A stretch of DNA of 52,141 nt from a virus. Where the stretch lies: the IMG/VR virus record IMGVR_UViG_3300031957_000416, positions 1 to 52,141 of that record. The stretch is one strand, 5' to 3'. The notes beneath the pieces are model-generated. The model saw only the letters and a program-made list of their open reading frames with translations. It did not search any database and had not been told where the DNA came from. Positions 2,791 to 34,481 of the stretch are shown here, piece after piece (positions within the stretch are counted from its first letter, which is position 1; every line of letters starts with the position of its first letter). A program made the position numbers and the translations under genes.

Positions 2791-4782
2791 CTATAATGCG
2801 ATCGCCATCGCTACTGCAAAGCCTGGTGAAGCATATAAAGTATCTGTAGATGTACCATTAATAGTTACAGCGTCAGCTTCAAGAGTACCATCTATATCTG
2901 CATCTCCAGATATATCTAAACTAGATGCCTCAATCTCACCACTTGCTTTAAATATTACATTATCTCCACCAGATACTTCAAAGATAATTTGATTGTCTGT
3001 ACCAAATTTAATTCTATTATCTGCATCTCTACCTATCTCTAAACTTGTATTAACTACTGAAGTAATGCCTGTCTGTGCTGCATCTACTGCTAATGTAACC
3101 GTATTTGAAGAAGCACTAGAAGCAAGTCCTGTACCACCAGCAACAGTTAATGTTTCACTATCAAGATCAATTGCAATAGTACCACTATCAGTTGTTATAT
3201 CTAAATCTTCTGCAGTAATTTGAGTATCTACATATGCTTTTACAGATTGCTGTGTTGGGACTAATGTAGCAGAGTTACTGCTCATATCATCTTCATCAAC
3301 AAATGCTGTAATAGTTATAGAGCCATCTGATAAACTACCATAAGTAACTGTGCCTGTAGTTGTTATTGCAGATGATCCATTATCTATAGATCCAAATCCT
3401 GAAGTAATTGATCCACTATTTAGTGCACCTACTGTTGTTGCTGCAGTAGTAACAAGATTAGGCATTGCTGTAATTTCATCATCAAAGTATGCAGCTAAAT
3501 CTGTAACTGCAACTTGAACCATAGTGCCGTTATCATTTAAGACAACTCTATCAGCATCTGCAACAGTAGTAGAAGTAGCTGATGTGCCACCATCTACAAT
3601 ATTTAACTCAGCAGCTGTAGCATCAACTGCAGCTAGTTTTGTAAAGTCTGCTTGTACTAAACCAGATACACCATCAAGTAAGTTAAGTTCTGTAGCTGTT
3701 GAAGTTACTGTTGTGCCATTAATAGATAAAGCATCTGTCTCTAAAGTACCGTCAATATCTGCATTACCTGATACATCTAATGATCCTGCATCTAACTCTC
3801 CAGTTAATGTTATGTTTCTAAATGATCCAATATCTTTATTAGAATCTACAACAACTGCTTTAGATGCTGCTACAGTTCCTGCAGTTACACCATCAATAGT
3901 TTCTAATTCTGCTTCATTAATATTTGCAGAACCAATAACAAAGCTAGTACCAGTAATTGCTGTACCTGTTATGGCACCTGCACTAGACCCACCAATAGTT
4001 ACACCATCAAGTGTACCCCCATTAATATCTGCAGTATCTGCAACTAGAGCATCAGTTGTTACTGTACCATCAAAGAATGCATCTTTAAATTCTACAGAAC
4101 TTGTACCTAAATCAATATCGTTATCTGTTGATGGAACAATTGCACCATTAGTAAATGTTACTTGATTAGCACCACCAGCTGCTACTGTAATAACATCAGA
4201 GCCACTAAATGTAATACTTGTGTCTGTATCTGCGTCTCCACTAATTGAATCTAATTGTATATTACCAGCATTGGTAAAGTTAGAATCACTTAGATCAAAT
4301 GTTCCTGTAACGTCTAGATTACCGCCAACTGATAGATTGCCTGATACATCTACTGCACCATTAATATCTACTGTAGTAGCTGCTATCTGTATTTCTGTAT
4401 CTGCTACTAGGTCTAGCTGACCATCTGCAGATGAGTGAATATATATTGCTGTGTCTCTAAATTGTACTTTCTCTGTGCTAGCTATTAACAGATCATCAGA
4501 AAACTCAAAGTAATCTTCATCTTCTTTCCATGTTAATACACCATCATTACTATTTGCATTAAATGTAATTGCTATGTCTGTATCTGCATTAGTACCAAAT
4601 GTTAGTGTATTACTAAATAATTTAGATATAGGCCCACCATCTCCAGCAGTACTGCCATCGTGTGTGTGACCTGTTGATACATTAAACGCTGCTAGTATCG
4701 CATTAAACTCATCATTAGTATGAGCTGCGGTAATAGTATCGCCATCACTGTATGAGCTTTGTCTAGCTGAATATACTGCCAT
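2791..4782 (-). CDS. Tail fibre protein with modular shaft repeats (663 aa)
   Basis: The N-terminus (A-H-T-N-D-E-F-N-A-I, then H-T-H-D-G near residue 38) is typical of virion-attached marine phage fibres. The shaft contains repeated modules such as D-I-D-G-T-L-E-[TA]-D-A (twice) and E-L-N-[IL]-[VL]-D-G (several times), interspersed with S-I-T-F-S-G and S-S-V-E-F-K-D motifs. The protein ends abruptly in a small hydrophobic tail (T-L-Y-A-S-P-G-F-A-V-A-M-A) without a recognisable chaperone or receptor domain, so the tip may be supplied by the next fibre genes. It overlaps the 515-aa upstream gene by one base. Confidence 0.85.
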   Translation of the reverse strand: MAVYSARQSSYSDGDTITAAHTNDEFNAILAAFNVSTGHTHDGSTAGDGGPISKLFSNTLTFGTNADTDIAITFNANSNDGVLTWKEDEDYFEFSDDLLIASTEKVQFRDTAIYIHSSADGQLDLVADTEIQIAATTVDINGAVDVSGNLSVGGNLDVTGTFDLSDSNFTNAGNIQLDSISGDADTDTSITFSGSDVITVAAGGANQVTFTNGAIVPSTDNDIDLGTSSVEFKDAFFDGTVTTDALVADTADINGGTLDGVTIGGSSAGAITGTAITGTSFVIGSANINEAELETIDGVTAGTVAASKAVVVDSNKDIGSFRNITLTGELDAGSLDVSGNADIDGTLETDALSINGTTVTSTATELNLLDGVSGLVQADFTKLAAVDATAAELNIVDGGTSATSTTVADADRVVLNDNGTMVQVAVTDLAAYFDDEITAMPNLVTTAATTVGALNSGSITSGFGSIDNGSSAITTTGTVTYGSLSDGSITITAFVDEDDMSSNSATLVPTQQSVKAYVDTQITAEDLDITTDSGTIAIDLDSETLTVAGGTGLASSASSNTVTLAVDAAQTGITSVVNTSLEIGRDADNRIKFGTDNQIIFEVSGGDNVIFKASGEIEASSLDISGDADIDGTLEADAVTINGTSTDTLYASPGFAVAMAIAL

Positions 4783-26067: not shown

Positions 26068-26284
26068 CCCACAATCTGTAGATTGTTTTTACAGAAATAT
26101 GTATAACTATTACAAGGAAGGGCACGAGAGAGATATGGCTAAAAAAAAGAAAGAAGAAGATTGGTGGGATACTCATCTAATTATAGATGGTGTAGATGAA
26201 GCAACTGCAAAGCAGATAAAAAACAAACTCAAGAAGAAACTAGAAAAGGAATTGACTCGAACAAATGGTAAAACCCAAAGCTAG
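26054..26284 (+). CDS. Small Lys/Glu-rich protein (76 aa; start uncertain)
   Basis: The longest frame starts at 26054. A better ribosome-site-like tract (GAGAGAG) lies before the in-frame ATG at 26135, which would give 49 residues beginning M-A-K-K-K-K-E-E-D-W-W. The C-terminal part is a charged helix (A-K-Q-I-K-N-K-L-K-K-K-L-E-K-E-L). It overlaps the methyltransferase start by 20 bases. No function can be assigned. Confidence 0.5.
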   Translation: MKGSSPQSVDCFYRNMYNYYKEGHERDMAKKKKEEDWWDTHLIIDGVDEATAKQIKNKLKKKLEKELTRTNGKTQS

Positions 26285-27347
26285 CTATAGTGGTAGTGTT
26301 CGTGTCAGGGAGCAGGTTAGTAGTCGTGCCTGCTCCCAAACTAAACTTACAACAATAGATTTATTTTCAGGCATAGGCGGATTCGCACTAGGCTTAGAAG
26401 GAACAGGATACTTTGAAACTATACAGTTTGTAGAGATGGATAAGTTCTGTCAAAAAGTATTAACTAAAAACTTTAAAGGAGTACCAATACATGAAGATGT
26501 CAAAACCTACAATCCCCCAACAGCTGACGTTGTCGTTGGAGGATTCCCTTGTCAAGGATTCTCAGTTGCAGGAAAAAGAAAAGGCACAAGTGATGACCGC
26601 TATCTCTGGCCAGAGATGTTACGAGTCATTAGAGAAGCAAAACCGAGGTGGGTTATTGGAGAAAATGTGCGAGGAATTATTAACATCGAAGACGGCATGG
26701 TATTCAAACAAGTGCACTCTGACTTGGAAGAAGAAGGCTTCCAAACAAAATGTTTCGTACTTCCAGCTGCTAGCGTCAACGCACCGCACCAAAGATACAG
26801 AACGTTCTTCATCGGACAAAGTATGGAGAACTCCAGACGCCCATTGCAGTCGAGGAGCATCAAGCAAGAAGAGAATGAAAAAGAAAATAAAGGAGGGACT
26901 GCCCATAAGTCTGAACGATCAGGTAGCACACGAGAAGATGTTGTGGCCAACAGCGACAACAGATACAACAGACAGGAAGAAGAAGTATGCACAAGGGGGA
27001 ACACCTCTAAGCCTGGCAGTGAAGATGTGGAGAACTCCTCAAGCATCAGATCACAAGAACATGGACACGGCAAATCAAGTGATGTTATCAACTCAAGTCA
27101 AGATGTTTCAGACACCTACAACGAGAATACACAAGGACAGTGGCAAGGGGAAGTGCGAAGTGAACAGGAAGTCTCCTACGTTAGCGATGCAAGCTGGTGG
27201 GAGTTTGAACCCCAGGTGGGTAGAGTGGCTAATGGGATTCCCGATAGATCACACAGACTTAAATCATTAGGTAATGCCGTAGTACCACAGTTAATATATC
27301 AATTAGGAAAAGCTATAGGAGTTGCGGAAGGACTTGACAAGAAATAA
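26265..27347 (+). CDS. C5-cytosine DNA methyltransferase (360 aa)
   Basis: Motif I D-L-F-S-G-I-G-G (32-39, AdoMet binding), motif IV P-C-Q (95-97, catalytic C96) within G-G-F-P-C-Q-G-F-S-V-A-G-K, motif VI E-N-V (133-135), motif VIII Q-R-Y-R (176-179) and the last motif G-N-A-V-V-P-Q (336-342) are all present, so it should methylate cytosine C5 using AdoMet. The target-recognition region (187-310) is polar and has repeated V-[AEI]-N-S words. No restriction enzyme is adjacent: defence evasion or gene control are likely roles. The gene looks less AT-rich than its neighbours, a sign of separate origin. Confidence 0.9.
   Translation: MVKPKASYSGSVRVREQVSSRACSQTKLTTIDLFSGIGGFALGLEGTGYFETIQFVEMDKFCQKVLTKNFKGVPIHEDVKTYNPPTADVVVGGFPCQGFSVAGKRKGTSDDRYLWPEMLRVIREAKPRWVIGENVRGIINIEDGMVFKQVHSDLEEEGFQTKCFVLPAASVNAPHQRYRTFFIGQSMENSRRPLQSRSIKQEENEKENKGGTAHKSERSGSTREDVVANSDNRYNRQEEEVCTRGNTSKPGSEDVENSSSIRSQEHGHGKSSDVINSSQDVSDTYNENTQGQWQGEVRSEQEVSYVSDASWWEFEPQVGRVANGIPDRSHRLKSLGNAVVPQLIYQLGKAIGVAEGLDKK
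26491..27270 (+). CDS. Overlapping frame inside the methyltransferase gene, W-x-T-P repeat type (259 aa)
   Basis: A 259-codon frame lies entirely inside the methyltransferase gene, shifted by one base. Its product has T-W-K-K-K-A-S-K (78-85), four spaced W/F-x-T-[PA] motifs (at 111, 151, 179, 205) and ends L-N-P-R-W-V-E-W-L-M-G-F-P. I recall phage proteins with exactly these features, often called hypothetical or methyltransferase-associated. Each W-x-T-P is the frame-shifted reading of a V-x-N/D-S word in the methyltransferase. No clear ribosome site was found, and the region is also open on the minus strand, so translation is uncertain. Confidence 0.4.
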   Translation: MKMSKPTIPQQLTLSLEDSLVKDSQLQEKEKAQVMTAISGQRCYESLEKQNRGGLLEKMCEELLTSKTAWYSNKCTLTWKKKASKQNVSYFQLLASTHRTKDTERSSSDKVWRTPDAHCSRGASSKKRMKKKIKEGLPISLNDQVAHEKMLWPTATTDTTDRKKKYAQGGTPLSLAVKMWRTPQASDHKNMDTANQVMLSTQVKMFQTPTTRIHKDSGKGKCEVNRKSPTLAMQAGGSLNPRWVEWLMGFPIDHTDLNH

Positions 27348-28166: not shown

Positions 28167-29356
28167 TTAAATTACTACTCAAAAAAAATTTTTATGAAAA
28201 GAATAAAGGTAAAGTATCTAAGACTACATTTAGTAATGGATTAGGAAACTTTTTTTCTACAATAGAAAGAGCACATCATGATTATGAAGATGATCTAACT
28301 ATAGATGATCTTATAAATTTACATACAGAAAAGTATAATCCTGCACTTACAAGGGCAGCTAAATTAAACTTTGAAACTTTAGTACAAGAGATAAAGAAAG
28401 AGCAAGAGCCTAACGCAGCAGTTGCTTCAGATATTATTGAAGCTGTACATAAAAGAAACTTAGCACACAAAGTTGCAGTTATAGCTACAGATATATTTAA
28501 CGGACAAGACAAATCTTTTAATGAAATCAAACAGTTATTAGATGGCACAGAAGAAGAAGCAGATGAGCACCAATCAGTTACGGAAGATATACCAGAGCTT
28601 ATAGACTCATTAGATATACAAACTAAATTTCAATTTAACCTACCAAGTTTACAAGAACAAGTTCCAGGTATTGGACCTGGCAATTTAGTTATTGTGTTTG
28701 CAAGGCCAGAGTCAGGTAAGACTGCGTTCTGGGTTAATCTTGTTGGTGGGCTACAAGGTTTTGCATCGCAAGGTGCGAAAGTCTGTGCATTAATAAATGA
28801 AGAACCTGCAGTCCGTACTCAGATGAGAGTCATCAATGCACATACAGGCATGACAAAAGATGAGATAATAGATAATATGGATTTAGCAAAAGAAAAATGG
28901 AAGGAGATAAAAGATAATGTTAAACTTTTGGACACTGTTGATTGGACTATTGATGATGTCGATAGTTTTTGTAAGCATCACAGGCCCGATATACTTGTCA
29001 TTGACCAGCTAGATAAAGTTAATATGTCTGGTAATTTTACTAGAACAGATGAGAAACTTAGAGCTGTATACACAGGGGCAAGAGAGATAGCTAAACGACA
29101 CGAGTGTTGCGTGGTAGCAATATCACAAGCATCAGCAGATGCACATGGTAAGACCAGAATATCATTTGATATGATGGAGAACTCAAAGACAGGTAAAGCT
29201 GCAGAGGCAGATTTAATTATAGGGATAGGTAAGCACGGCACTTTAGATTCCTTGGATACTACTAGGGTTATGTGCATAAGTAAGAATAAGATATCTGGAT
29301 ATCATGGAGAGATTACTTGTAACATTGAGCCACAACTATCGAGGTACAGAGTATGA
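28148..29356 (+). CDS. Replicative DnaB/gp4-type helicase (402 aa)
   Basis: The RecA-like core has Walker A A-R-P-E-S-G-K-T (185-192), an E-E-P-A-V-R motif (218-223), Walker B D-I-L-V-I-D-Q (281-287) and the sensor A-I-S-Q-A-S (324-329). The Walker A carries P-E in place of more usual G/A residues but keeps G-K-T. The N-terminal 150 residues are helical and acidic. A hexameric 5'-3' helicase opening the fork for the family A polymerase is expected. It overlaps primase upstream and the PP-loop gene downstream by 4 bases. Confidence 0.9.
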   Translation: MQERQLIKLLLKKNFYEKNKGKVSKTTFSNGLGNFFSTIERAHHDYEDDLTIDDLINLHTEKYNPALTRAAKLNFETLVQEIKKEQEPNAAVASDIIEAVHKRNLAHKVAVIATDIFNGQDKSFNEIKQLLDGTEEEADEHQSVTEDIPELIDSLDIQTKFQFNLPSLQEQVPGIGPGNLVIVFARPESGKTAFWVNLVGGLQGFASQGAKVCALINEEPAVRTQMRVINAHTGMTKDEIIDNMDLAKEKWKEIKDNVKLLDTVDWTIDDVDSFCKHHRPDILVIDQLDKVNMSGNFTRTDEKLRAVYTGAREIAKRHECCVVAISQASADAHGKTRISFDMMENSKTGKAAEADLIIGIGKHGTLDSLDTTRVMCISKNKISGYHGEITCNIEPQLSRYRV

Positions 29357-30153
29357 AAAAGCTAACAGTAATATCATTGGGTGCAGGAGTACAATCAAGT
29401 ACCATGGCACTAATGGCAAATAATGGCCTCATAGATCCTATGCCTACCTGTGCTATTTTTGCAGACACACAAAATGAACCCAAATATATATATGAATACT
29501 TAGAGTATCTAAAGGGCATATTAAAGTTTCCTGTGTACACAGTAACAAAAGGAAACATAAAAGAGGACATGCTAAAGCCCACTACTGGAGGTTATACCTT
29601 TCCTACTGCACCTTTCTATACTCTAAAGAATGGAAAGAAAGGCATGGTCATGCGGCAGTGCACAAATGACTACAAGATTCAAGTTATAAGAAAAAAAATT
29701 AGGGATCTTTTAGGGCTAAAAAGATATCAGCATGTAAAAAAAGATATGTTTGTTGAGCAATGGATAGGCATATCTACAGATGAAATTGCCAGAAAAAAAC
29801 CAGCCAGAGACAAGTTCATAACTAACAGATGGCCTCTTCTTGAAGAGACAATGAATAGGCAAGATTGCATTGATTGGATGAAAGAGCATGGGTATAAAAT
29901 GCCAGAGAAAAGTGCATGTAATATGTGCCCATTTCATGATGACAAATACTGGGCTAACCTTAAAAAGAATCACCCTGAAGAATTTGCTGACGCTGTTGAT
30001 ACAGATACCAAAGTAAGAAATCTTGGAAGAGATAAAGATGCAGAACTATTTATACATAAAACTTGCAAGCCACTATCTGAGGTTAAATTTGACACGGAAG
30101 AAGACCAATTAGATATGTTTGATAATGCCTGCGAGGGTATGTGCGGAGTTTAA
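29353..30153 (+). CDS. PP-loop ATPase, PAPS-reductase-like (266 aa)
   Basis: The N-terminal S-L-G-A-G-V-Q-S-S-T (8-17) is the PP-loop that binds and splits ATP in PAPS reductases and N-type ATP pyrophosphatases. A-I-F-A-D-T-Q (34-40) is the usual following strand. Cysteine pairs occur at C-N-M-C-P-F (~190) and near the C-terminus (C-E-G-M-C). A true assimilatory reductase would need the C-terminal E-C-G-x-H motif, which I do not see. A base- or backbone-modifying thiolation or activation enzyme is as likely. It lies between helicase and polymerase. Confidence 0.7.
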   Translation: MKKLTVISLGAGVQSSTMALMANNGLIDPMPTCAIFADTQNEPKYIYEYLEYLKGILKFPVYTVTKGNIKEDMLKPTTGGYTFPTAPFYTLKNGKKGMVMRQCTNDYKIQVIRKKIRDLLGLKRYQHVKKDMFVEQWIGISTDEIARKKPARDKFITNRWPLLEETMNRQDCIDWMKEHGYKMPEKSACNMCPFHDDKYWANLKKNHPEEFADAVDTDTKVRNLGRDKDAELFIHKTCKPLSEVKFDTEEDQLDMFDNACEGMCGV

Positions 30154-32742: not shown

Positions 32743-33591
32743 ATGTCTAACAATGAAGTGGCTAACATAGACGGTCTATCGCAAGATCAGATCATGTCTA
32801 TGATTGGCCAAGAGAAATCTTCTACTGGCAACTTCTTACCGAAGCTAGCCATAAATAGATTTCCAGAAAACGATGATGGTGCGGAAGTGCCAGTAGGATC
32901 ATACGGTGTGTATGTTCCTGAACTAGATAGTTACGCTTATGGAAAGCCAGTAACTTTTAGACCATTCATGAATGCATATCAGTATATGAAGTACGATGCA
33001 GACAAGAATGAATACAGCAACAGAAGTATAATCTTTAAGTCTTGGAAAGATGAGGCTATAGATATACAAGGTGGCGTGAGATGTGGTAAGATACCAGCAA
33101 AAGAACTTGCTAATATTTCTGATGAAGAAAGAATGAAACAGAAAGCGATAAAGTGTTATCGTTTAGTTTATGGTTTAGTTTCTTTTAAAGGTACAGTGCC
33201 AGGAGGAGACACAACAGAAGTAAAAGACTTACCTGTGTTGTGGAAAGTAACAGGCAGTAACTTTAAACCTGTTGGAGAGGCTATAGAAAGTCTTAGACGC
33301 AGAGGTAAAGTAATGTTTAATCACACACTTGAACTTAAAACTATGAAGAAGAAAGCAGGCAGTAATGTATTCTATGTCTCTAATATATCAGTCAATCCAG
33401 AAGAGGTTACGTTCACTGATAAAGAAAAAGAAATTCTCTTATCTTTTCAAGATGTTATCAATACTGAGAACGAAGAAATAGTAGAGCTCTGGCGTGCTGC
33501 TAAGAAGGCATCTCCTAGTACAGCGGATGCAAAAATCATAGAAGTAGCAGACGATCTAGAAGGCGATCCAGCGGAGATACTTGCTTCGTGA
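32743..33591 (+). CDS. Putative ssDNA-binding or recombination-associated protein (282 aa)
   Basis: The ATG at 32743 is chosen; a GTG directly before it is equally near the GGAGG. The protein has a beta-rich middle (P-V-G-S-Y-G-V-Y-V-P, G-L-V-S-F-K-G-T-V, N-H-T-L-E-L-K-T-M) and an acidic C-terminus (V-A-D-D-L-E-G-D-P), a layout shared with phage ssDNA-binding proteins. Position between polymerase and exonuclease fits. There is no signature motif, so the call is from architecture and context. Confidence 0.5.
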   Translation: MSNNEVANIDGLSQDQIMSMIGQEKSSTGNFLPKLAINRFPENDDGAEVPVGSYGVYVPELDSYAYGKPVTFRPFMNAYQYMKYDADKNEYSNRSIIFKSWKDEAIDIQGGVRCGKIPAKELANISDEERMKQKAIKCYRLVYGLVSFKGTVPGGDTTEVKDLPVLWKVTGSNFKPVGEAIESLRRRGKVMFNHTLELKTMKKKAGSNVFYVSNISVNPEEVTFTDKEKEILLSFQDVINTENEEIVELWRAAKKASPSTADAKIIEVADDLEGDPAEILAS

Positions 33592-34481
33592 GTTCAGACA
33601 TCCTAGAAAAAGTTAGGGTGTTTCTTGAGGCCGCATCGAAGGATGCGGTTGAGGTATCCGATGATTTGATTGACCAGTTTGGTAAGGCTTGTGCTGATTC
33701 ATTCCGCAAGCAATTTACTGACCAAAGAAAAAAAGAGTTTGGTCTTAGGGCATCAAACATCGGAAGACCTTTATGTCAACTGCAAATGGAAAAGAAAGGT
33801 GTTAAAGGAGAGTCACAGCCATATAATTTTAAGATGAGAAATTTTTTTGGTGACTTAGTAGAGCAAGCTGCTATGATAATTATGAAAGCATCTGGAGTAG
33901 AGATACAATCAGAGCAGACAAAGACAGAATATAAACTTGATGGCACAAGTGTAAATGGCACACTTGATGTAGAGATTGAAGATAAAGTATGGGATATTAA
34001 AAGTGCATCTCCCTGGTCATTCACTAATAAGTTTGGAGAGAACGGTGGGTTCCATGCAGTAGCAGATGATGATCTGTTTGGATACCTAGCACAGGGCTAT
34101 ATGTATGCAGAGGCTAGACAAAAACCATTTGGTGGGTGGATAGTAATTAATAAATCTACAGGAGAGTGGGTGCTAACAGAGGCACCAATAGCTGATGATG
34201 AGTATAAAGAAAAAGCAATTAGTGATATTGACAATAATATAAGAGCTATAACTTTAGACAAAGAATTTAAAAGATGTTTCAAAGATGAAGATGAGTACTT
34301 TAGAAAGCAGAAGACAGGTAATAAAGTTCTAGGTACGGCATGTAGTTTCTGCCCTTACAAGTTTCCTTGTTGGGGAGAAAACTTGCAGATGCTGCCACAA
34401 CAGCAATCGCAAGCTAAAAACCCTAAATGGGTTTGGTATACTAAGGTTAATAATCCTAGGGTAGAGGACTATGACTCCTAG
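33588..34481 (+). CDS. PD-(D/E)xK exonuclease with Cas4/AddB-type cysteines (297 aa)
   Basis: The start is GTG, overlapping the previous stop. The nuclease core has G-T-L-D127 then W-D136-I-K138 and Q169-G-Y-M-Y173, the usual D, (D/E)xK and QxxxY motifs of RecB-family nucleases. Four cysteines, C63 before the core and C252-x2-C255-x5-C261 after it, are placed as in Cas4 and AddB, where they hold a 4Fe-4S cluster. The enzyme probably processes DNA ends in recombination or host DNA breakdown. It overlaps the following nuclease gene by 11 bases. Confidence 0.8.
   Translation: MSSDILEKVRVFLEAASKDAVEVSDDLIDQFGKACADSFRKQFTDQRKKEFGLRASNIGRPLCQLQMEKKGVKGESQPYNFKMRNFFGDLVEQAAMIIMKASGVEIQSEQTKTEYKLDGTSVNGTLDVEIEDKVWDIKSASPWSFTNKFGENGGFHAVADDDLFGYLAQGYMYAEARQKPFGGWIVINKSTGEWVLTEAPIADDEYKEKAISDIDNNIRAITLDKEFKRCFKDEDEYFRKQKTGNKVLGTACSFCPYKFPCWGENLQMLPQQQSQAKNPKWVWYTKVNNPRVEDYDS

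Follow-up and report, generated by a model that had tools for sequence, protein, structure and literature searches.

In M.HhaI and M.HaeIII the recognition domain and motif IX of the C5-cytosine DNA methyltransferase are held in the same chain and frame. For EcoHK31I, Lee, Kam and Shaw reportedly found in 1995 that a different frame within the large gene encodes the small chain and that both chains are needed in vitro. M.EcoHK31I carries motifs I-VIII and X on its large chain and motif IX on its small chain, with the predicted recognition domain placed in the large subunit and not in the small one (PMC3404938). M.AquI also consists of two chains, split after motif VIII, with motif IX on the other chain (PMC3404938). 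A literature search for nested or overlapping phage methyltransferases found nothing relevant among the papers it covered. The phage locus described here very probably encodes a two-subunit C5-cytosine DNA methyltransferase from overlapping frames, in which target recognition and motif IX would reside on the nested subunit.

On the + strand of the window, by which we mean the whole stretch of DNA that was analysed (a virus record of 52,141 nucleotides), an outer open reading frame of 360 aa at 26265-27347 (alpha) contains a nested frame of 259 aa at 26491-27270 (beta), which starts with ATG and is offset by +1. The third frame, neither alpha's nor beta's, holds 23 stops. Alpha matches the profiles PF00145 (E 3e-50), phrog_363 (E 1e-76) and TIGR00675. 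Beta matches PHROG 1008 over residues 7-257 (E 2.6e-31) and had no match in Pfam and NCBIfam searches. The label of PHROG 1008, 'DNA methyltransferase', describes the host gene, whereas the family itself is the nested frame and is devoid of catalytic motifs. A first-pass annotation, made from the sequence alone, had described this 259-codon frame as lying wholly inside the 360-codon methyltransferase gene at +1, and the coordinates were confirmed. It had also placed four W/F-x-T-[PA] words over V/M-x-N/D-S/T words of the methyltransferase at residues 187, 227, 255 and 281, which is exactly what the two translations give: WRTP over MENSR (26824-26835), WPTA over VANSD (26944-26955), WRTP over VENSS (27028-27039) and FQTP over VSDTY (27106-27117). 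Its observation that the nested end lies over the end signature of alpha holds as well, with the motif-IX-like segment LNPRWVEWLMGFP (27205-27243) stacked on the alpha reading FEPQVGRVANGIPD; this segment overlaps the alpha signature EPQVGRVANGIP, and both frames are constrained there. The genes next downstream encode a primase, a DnaB-type helicase, a PAPS-reductase-like protein and a DNA polymerase, and from these replication-gene neighbours the enzyme would be an orphan phage methyltransferase. The PAPS-reductase-like gene (29353-30153) has counterparts a few genes from nested-type methyltransferases in L004 (2174-2848), L297 (3649-4350) and L298 (2928-3686), the latter two loci being related to each other, and the replication region of the window also holds a Cas4-domain exonuclease-like gene (33588-34481, PHROG 1990).

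Several hundred phages and prophages, spread over many bacterial phyla, share this arrangement. Full-length relatives of beta with about 33-35% identity were found by tblastn in Paenibacillus, Lacticaseibacillus and marine phages, a scan of viral contigs gave at least 589 relatives, and a scan of one genome per species gave 228. These two scans yielded 160 loci; with phage records added, 173 of 176 loci are fully nested at +1 and the other three partly so. Judged by the titles of their records, the loci from genomes include Bacillota, Bacteroidota, Synergistota, Pseudomonadota, Thermodesulfobacteriota and Actinomycetota, as well as Acidobacteriota, Chlorobiota, Elusimicrobiota, Spirochaetota, Verrucomicrobiota and Fibrobacterota. 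Across about 280 loci, which span phages, prophages and ten or more bacterial phyla, every convincing relative lies at +1 inside a methyltransferase and never alone. Conversely, the nested protein is present in 80/80 loci picked by the methyltransferase profile alone. Within the Pseudomonadota it was found in at least 16 of 299 genomes (the first nine candidates per genome being scored), and the convincing hits were all nested at +1. L283, the only match that is not nested, is marginal (E 7.8e-4) and was set aside as probable chance.

Alpha has the residues expected of a catalytic chain. The PCQ, ENV, R-x-R and GN-x-V-x-P residues are present in the aligned alpha proteins, invariant or nearly so, and the hallmark motifs I, IV (PCQ), VI (ENV), VIII and X of PF00145 are all found in alpha. 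The catalytic Pro-Cys-Gln of motif IV (residues 95-97, 26547-26555) is invariant in the alignment, as are E133 and N134 of the motif VI Glu-Asn-Val (residues 133-135, 26661-26669), with V135 nearly so, and the columns of motif X (G336 N337 A V V P341, 27270-27287), which begins where the nested frame stops. The canonical motif IX pattern, in what is a coarse test, occurs in 0/226 alpha proteins and in 10/30 control enzymes. The AlphaFold2 model of alpha is confident over motifs I-VIII and over the motif X helices, and residues 207-326 (26883-27242) are mostly below a pLDDT of 50; this stretch is predicted to be disordered, with no target-recognition fold, and to be mostly the out-of-frame shadow of beta, as the inverted phase of its substitutions also indicates. 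In addition, hmmsearch and Foldseek match alpha to M.HhaI over the large domain only. Alpha is thus modelled as having neither motif IX nor a folded target-recognition domain. The large chain of M.EcoHK31I (and of M.EaeI), two-polypeptide enzymes of Escherichia/Enterobacter, has the same content, namely motifs I-VIII and X without IX, and the small chain is reported to lie out of frame inside the large gene as in the present family. In M.EcoHK31I, however, the recognition domain is predicted on the large chain, whereas selection places the variable region here in the nested chain; that published placement, being a prediction, was not taken as a defining feature of the type. M.AquI differs in another respect, having X together with IX on its small chain, while the window keeps X on alpha. 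The present family probably works like M.EcoHK31I, a likeness drawn from the described organisation, and is a putative rather than a proved member of that type.

Beta, in turn, ends in a segment that resembles the motif absent from alpha, a likeness that the first-pass annotation had not noticed and which suggests two subunits of one enzyme. The C-terminal consensus of the nested family is LNPxWVEWLMGFPxGWTDL, and hhalign of the beta profile against single-chain enzymes gave its best alignment exactly on motif IX (LTPRECARLQGFPDSFR), a weak match of 17 columns (P 0.045). The variable middle of the protein mostly holds 1-7 W-x-T-P-like modules. AlphaFold2 modelled beta alone poorly (pLDDT 61.5, pTM 0.30), Foldseek found no solved fold for that model, and no solved structure was matched when the nested family was searched by sequence; as such, the term 'target-recognition domain' rests on position and selection. 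The placing of the segment just ahead of motif X, and a rearrangement in the relatives L072 and L115, favour its reading as motif IX. The prediction that beta carries motif IX and the recognition domain is supported rather than proved.

Here we propose that alpha would act as the catalytic subunit, contributing AdoMet binding, the catalytic Cys and motifs I-VIII and X, and that its stretch between VIII and X would be an unstructured linker, an out-of-frame reading through the beta gene by which the chain reaches motif X. Beta would have a ribosome-binding site of its own, be initiated separately at 26491 and supply the small domain, with the variable W-x-T-P modules reading the DNA target and motif IX packing the small domain onto alpha. 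The two chains, made from one mRNA, would then assemble into an active enzyme, an orphan phage methyltransferase encoded beside the replication genes. From sequence, we infer that beta would be expressed, would form a complex with alpha and would serve as its recognition subunit, and that activity would need both chains.

An alternative that keeps the nested gene real would give it another role, for example as a regulator, an anti-restriction factor or an endonuclease. The first ~110 residues of beta face motifs IV-VIII; they are more conserved than alpha alone would require and match nothing known, which would fit such a role. Still, we regard this alternative as unlikely, since alpha is without motif IX and without a folded recognition domain, the motif-IX-like segment that closes beta comes immediately ahead of motif X, no convincing match placed beta apart from alpha, and two relatives, L072 and L115, have motif X in the beta frame instead. 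In these two loci the outer frame ends just after motif VIII, and a single nested frame runs through W-x-T-P, LNPDWVEWLMGFP and then EPDIPRVA.G...R.NR.KCLGNAVVPQ, so that motif IX and the alpha-type pre-X signature with motif X (EP..RVA.G....RLK.LGNAVVPQ) stand in tandem. Read in the former outer frame, the DNA under motif IX still gives GGMADGFSNRLDG or GRMADGFPVRLDG, and nothing other than the W-x-T-P stretch remains between VIII and IX. The undone overlap of L072 and L115 thus keeps both readings, separately, and only these two relatives have a division like that of M.AquI, with IX and X together on the second chain.

If ribosomes passed from alpha into the nested frame by a programmed frameshift, one fused protein would unite motifs I-VIII with the W-x-T-P modules and motif IX in a single chain, and L072 and L115 do hold the later motifs in one frame. 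The region around the nested start makes such a shift quite improbable. A Shine-Dalgarno-like AAAGGAG (26475-26481) lies before the nested ATG with a 9-base spacer, and an in-frame TAA (26461-26463) stands just upstream of the start, with similar spacing in most relatives, where the in-frame stop lies a median of 3 residues before model position 1 and hence close upstream of a conserved start. A Shine-Dalgarno match of at least five bases precedes 43% of 217 nested starts, assigned automatically, versus 19% in synonymously shuffled genes and 9% before other ATGs within the gene. Moreover, the conserved N half of the nested protein lies opposite motifs IV-VIII, which a shift after VIII would not explain. 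Given the in-frame stop and the Shine-Dalgarno enrichment, beta is more likely to be translated by independent internal initiation than by an upstream frameshift.

That so long a frame is unlikely by chance, as the first-pass annotation had argued, was borne out by synonymous-codon shuffles of alpha with the protein held fixed, in which the nested frame of the window was open in 0/20,000 cases and contained a mean of 10.9 stops; a chance frame was rejected on this result. The same kind of shuffle, 20 per locus, was applied to 152 loci, none of which had been used to train the profiles. There were 0 nested-frame stops in the real genes versus 6.5 per gene in the shuffles, so that the stops scattered through relatives, which the first-pass annotation had named as evidence against a second gene, were absent from all 152 loci. 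The N half of beta scored 109 bits against 51 in the null and was above all 20 shuffles in 146/152 loci, and the C half scored 96 bits against 9 and was above the shuffles in 152/152. In the reverse shuffle, with the codons of the nested frame permuted, the outer frame gained ~8 stops per gene, which indicates that both frames are held open. A mistaken annotation, in which the nested frame would be no more than a by-product of codon usage and of the conservation of the methyltransferase, is therefore very improbable. Part of the N-terminal similarity of beta does derive from alpha, as the 51 bits in the null reveal, but openness and most of the score are destroyed by synonymous shuffles, change between motifs VIII and IX is concentrated at third positions of the nested frame, and 30 control C5-methyltransferases have 11-44 stops in the corresponding frame and no such protein. 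These computations show that the nested frame is an obligately nested gene for a conserved protein and that selection is shared out between the two frames.

How selection is divided was read from 29 independent pairs of relatives, counting changes per codon at alpha positions 1/2/3, with alpha positions 3 and 1 corresponding to beta positions 2 and 3, respectively. The rates were.073/.040/.308 before the overlap,.078/.040/.140 in the overlap with motifs IV-VIII,.266/.130/.137 between motifs VIII and IX and.111/.086/.300 past the nested stop, at the motif X end. Thus, conservation follows the outer frame before the overlap and again at motif X, both frames count over motifs IV-VIII, where synonymous change in the outer frame is roughly halved, and between VIII and IX conservation follows the nested frame, the methyltransferase frame being only kept open. 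Over the short motif IX segment the rates were.129/.036/.055, and this low change at all codon positions points to constraint on both readings. Between VIII and IX the nested frame was individually the conserved one in 26 of the 29 pairs, with one tie, and the window compared with its close relative L089 has 34/7/2 changes there at alpha positions 1/2/3. The alignment of these regions followed the outer protein, and misalignment in the variable stretch adds noise that would blur this pattern and not create it. A constraint on DNA or RNA, such as a structure or a recombination site without a second protein, would fit reduced synonymous change alone, but it deserves next to no credence, as a nucleotide element has no three-base rhythm and between VIII and IX the first positions of alpha, which are the third positions of beta, change at.266, near the upstream third-position rate of.308, with the other two at about half.

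The reduction in synonymous change that the first-pass annotation had suggested looking for is hence present, third positions of alpha having fallen from.308 upstream to.140 over IV-VIII and.137 over VIII-IX. Together with the open frames and the profile scores far above the shuffle nulls, this reduction in independent lineages strongly supports one of the two explanations offered there, a dual-coding gene. The other, that a frameshift of the target-recognition part of these enzymes gave rise to a W-x-T-P family, is unsupported as worded, as no standalone W-x-T-P family outside methyltransferase genes was found among the convincing hits of the phage, viral-contig and genome scans. The relation is closer to the opposite: it is the W-x-T-P frame whose protein is conserved between VIII and IX, and the 'V-x-N-S' words are mostly a shadow of W-x-T-P and not the other way round. 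A search for relatives had likewise been proposed, and its convincing matches were all in the +1 frame of a methyltransferase. The attribution of these features to standalone phage proteins did not hold, since every convincing relative is nested and the seemingly standalone records are nested frames annotated alone, which makes such proteins look standalone in databases. In Cronobacter phage JC01 and a Salmonella phage, for instance, the nested frame is annotated as 'DNA methyltransferase' and the outer gene is missing from the annotation. Escherichia coli prophages carry the nested type too, with the outer frame alone annotated in the 5 loci examined. Both frames are annotated in Paenibacillus larvae phage Shelly; the 'g55 internal gene' of Shelly and its relatives has the same nested position and full-length similarity to beta, and its annotators had noted that it lies inside the methyltransferase gene, giving its function only as 'DNA methyltransferase'.

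Several relatives have unusual arrangements of their own. In the record KT997847 (L003, 1519-2355) a short N-terminal methyltransferase piece is annotated, followed by the nested frame as methyltransferase; the outer frame continues in another phase, which may reflect a frameshift in the record. An E. coli prophage of strain PT62 (L334) holds two different nested-type methyltransferases ~2 kb apart (42-1028 and 3000-3737), and L086 (133-1952) has a tandem pair of such genes, the second apparently altered near motif X. The outer frame contains an internal stop in L335 (3000-3761) and L107 (2299-3279), with the nested frame broken in the former and open in the latter. The same nested-type locus occurs five times in one Roseovarius chromosome (L127 and L128-L131), which suggests several related prophages. 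A tree built on the catalytic part separates the nested-type enzymes from 23 Bacillota control enzymes by a branch with 100/100 support, which is compatible with one origin, with the proviso that the DNA used partly encodes the nested protein, so that the overlap itself could cause some of the clustering.

Long same-strand overlapping genes of prokaryotes are few and disputed, and the present one has several hundred relatives. As selection visibly shifts frame along the gene, the locus could be used as a benchmark. Beyond the window, we lean towards the view that these enzymes form a multi-phylum clade of phage and prophage C5-methyltransferases whose recognition subunit lies wholly out of frame in the catalytic gene, an old, wide and obligate nested pair in which the variable region annotated in hundreds of them would be a largely non-functional shadow and the W-x-T-P modules would be the specificity units. 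In many database methyltransferases the wrong frame would accordingly be taken for the specificity region, target prediction or testing from the outer protein alone would fail, and the annotated chain, when expressed alone, may be inactive.
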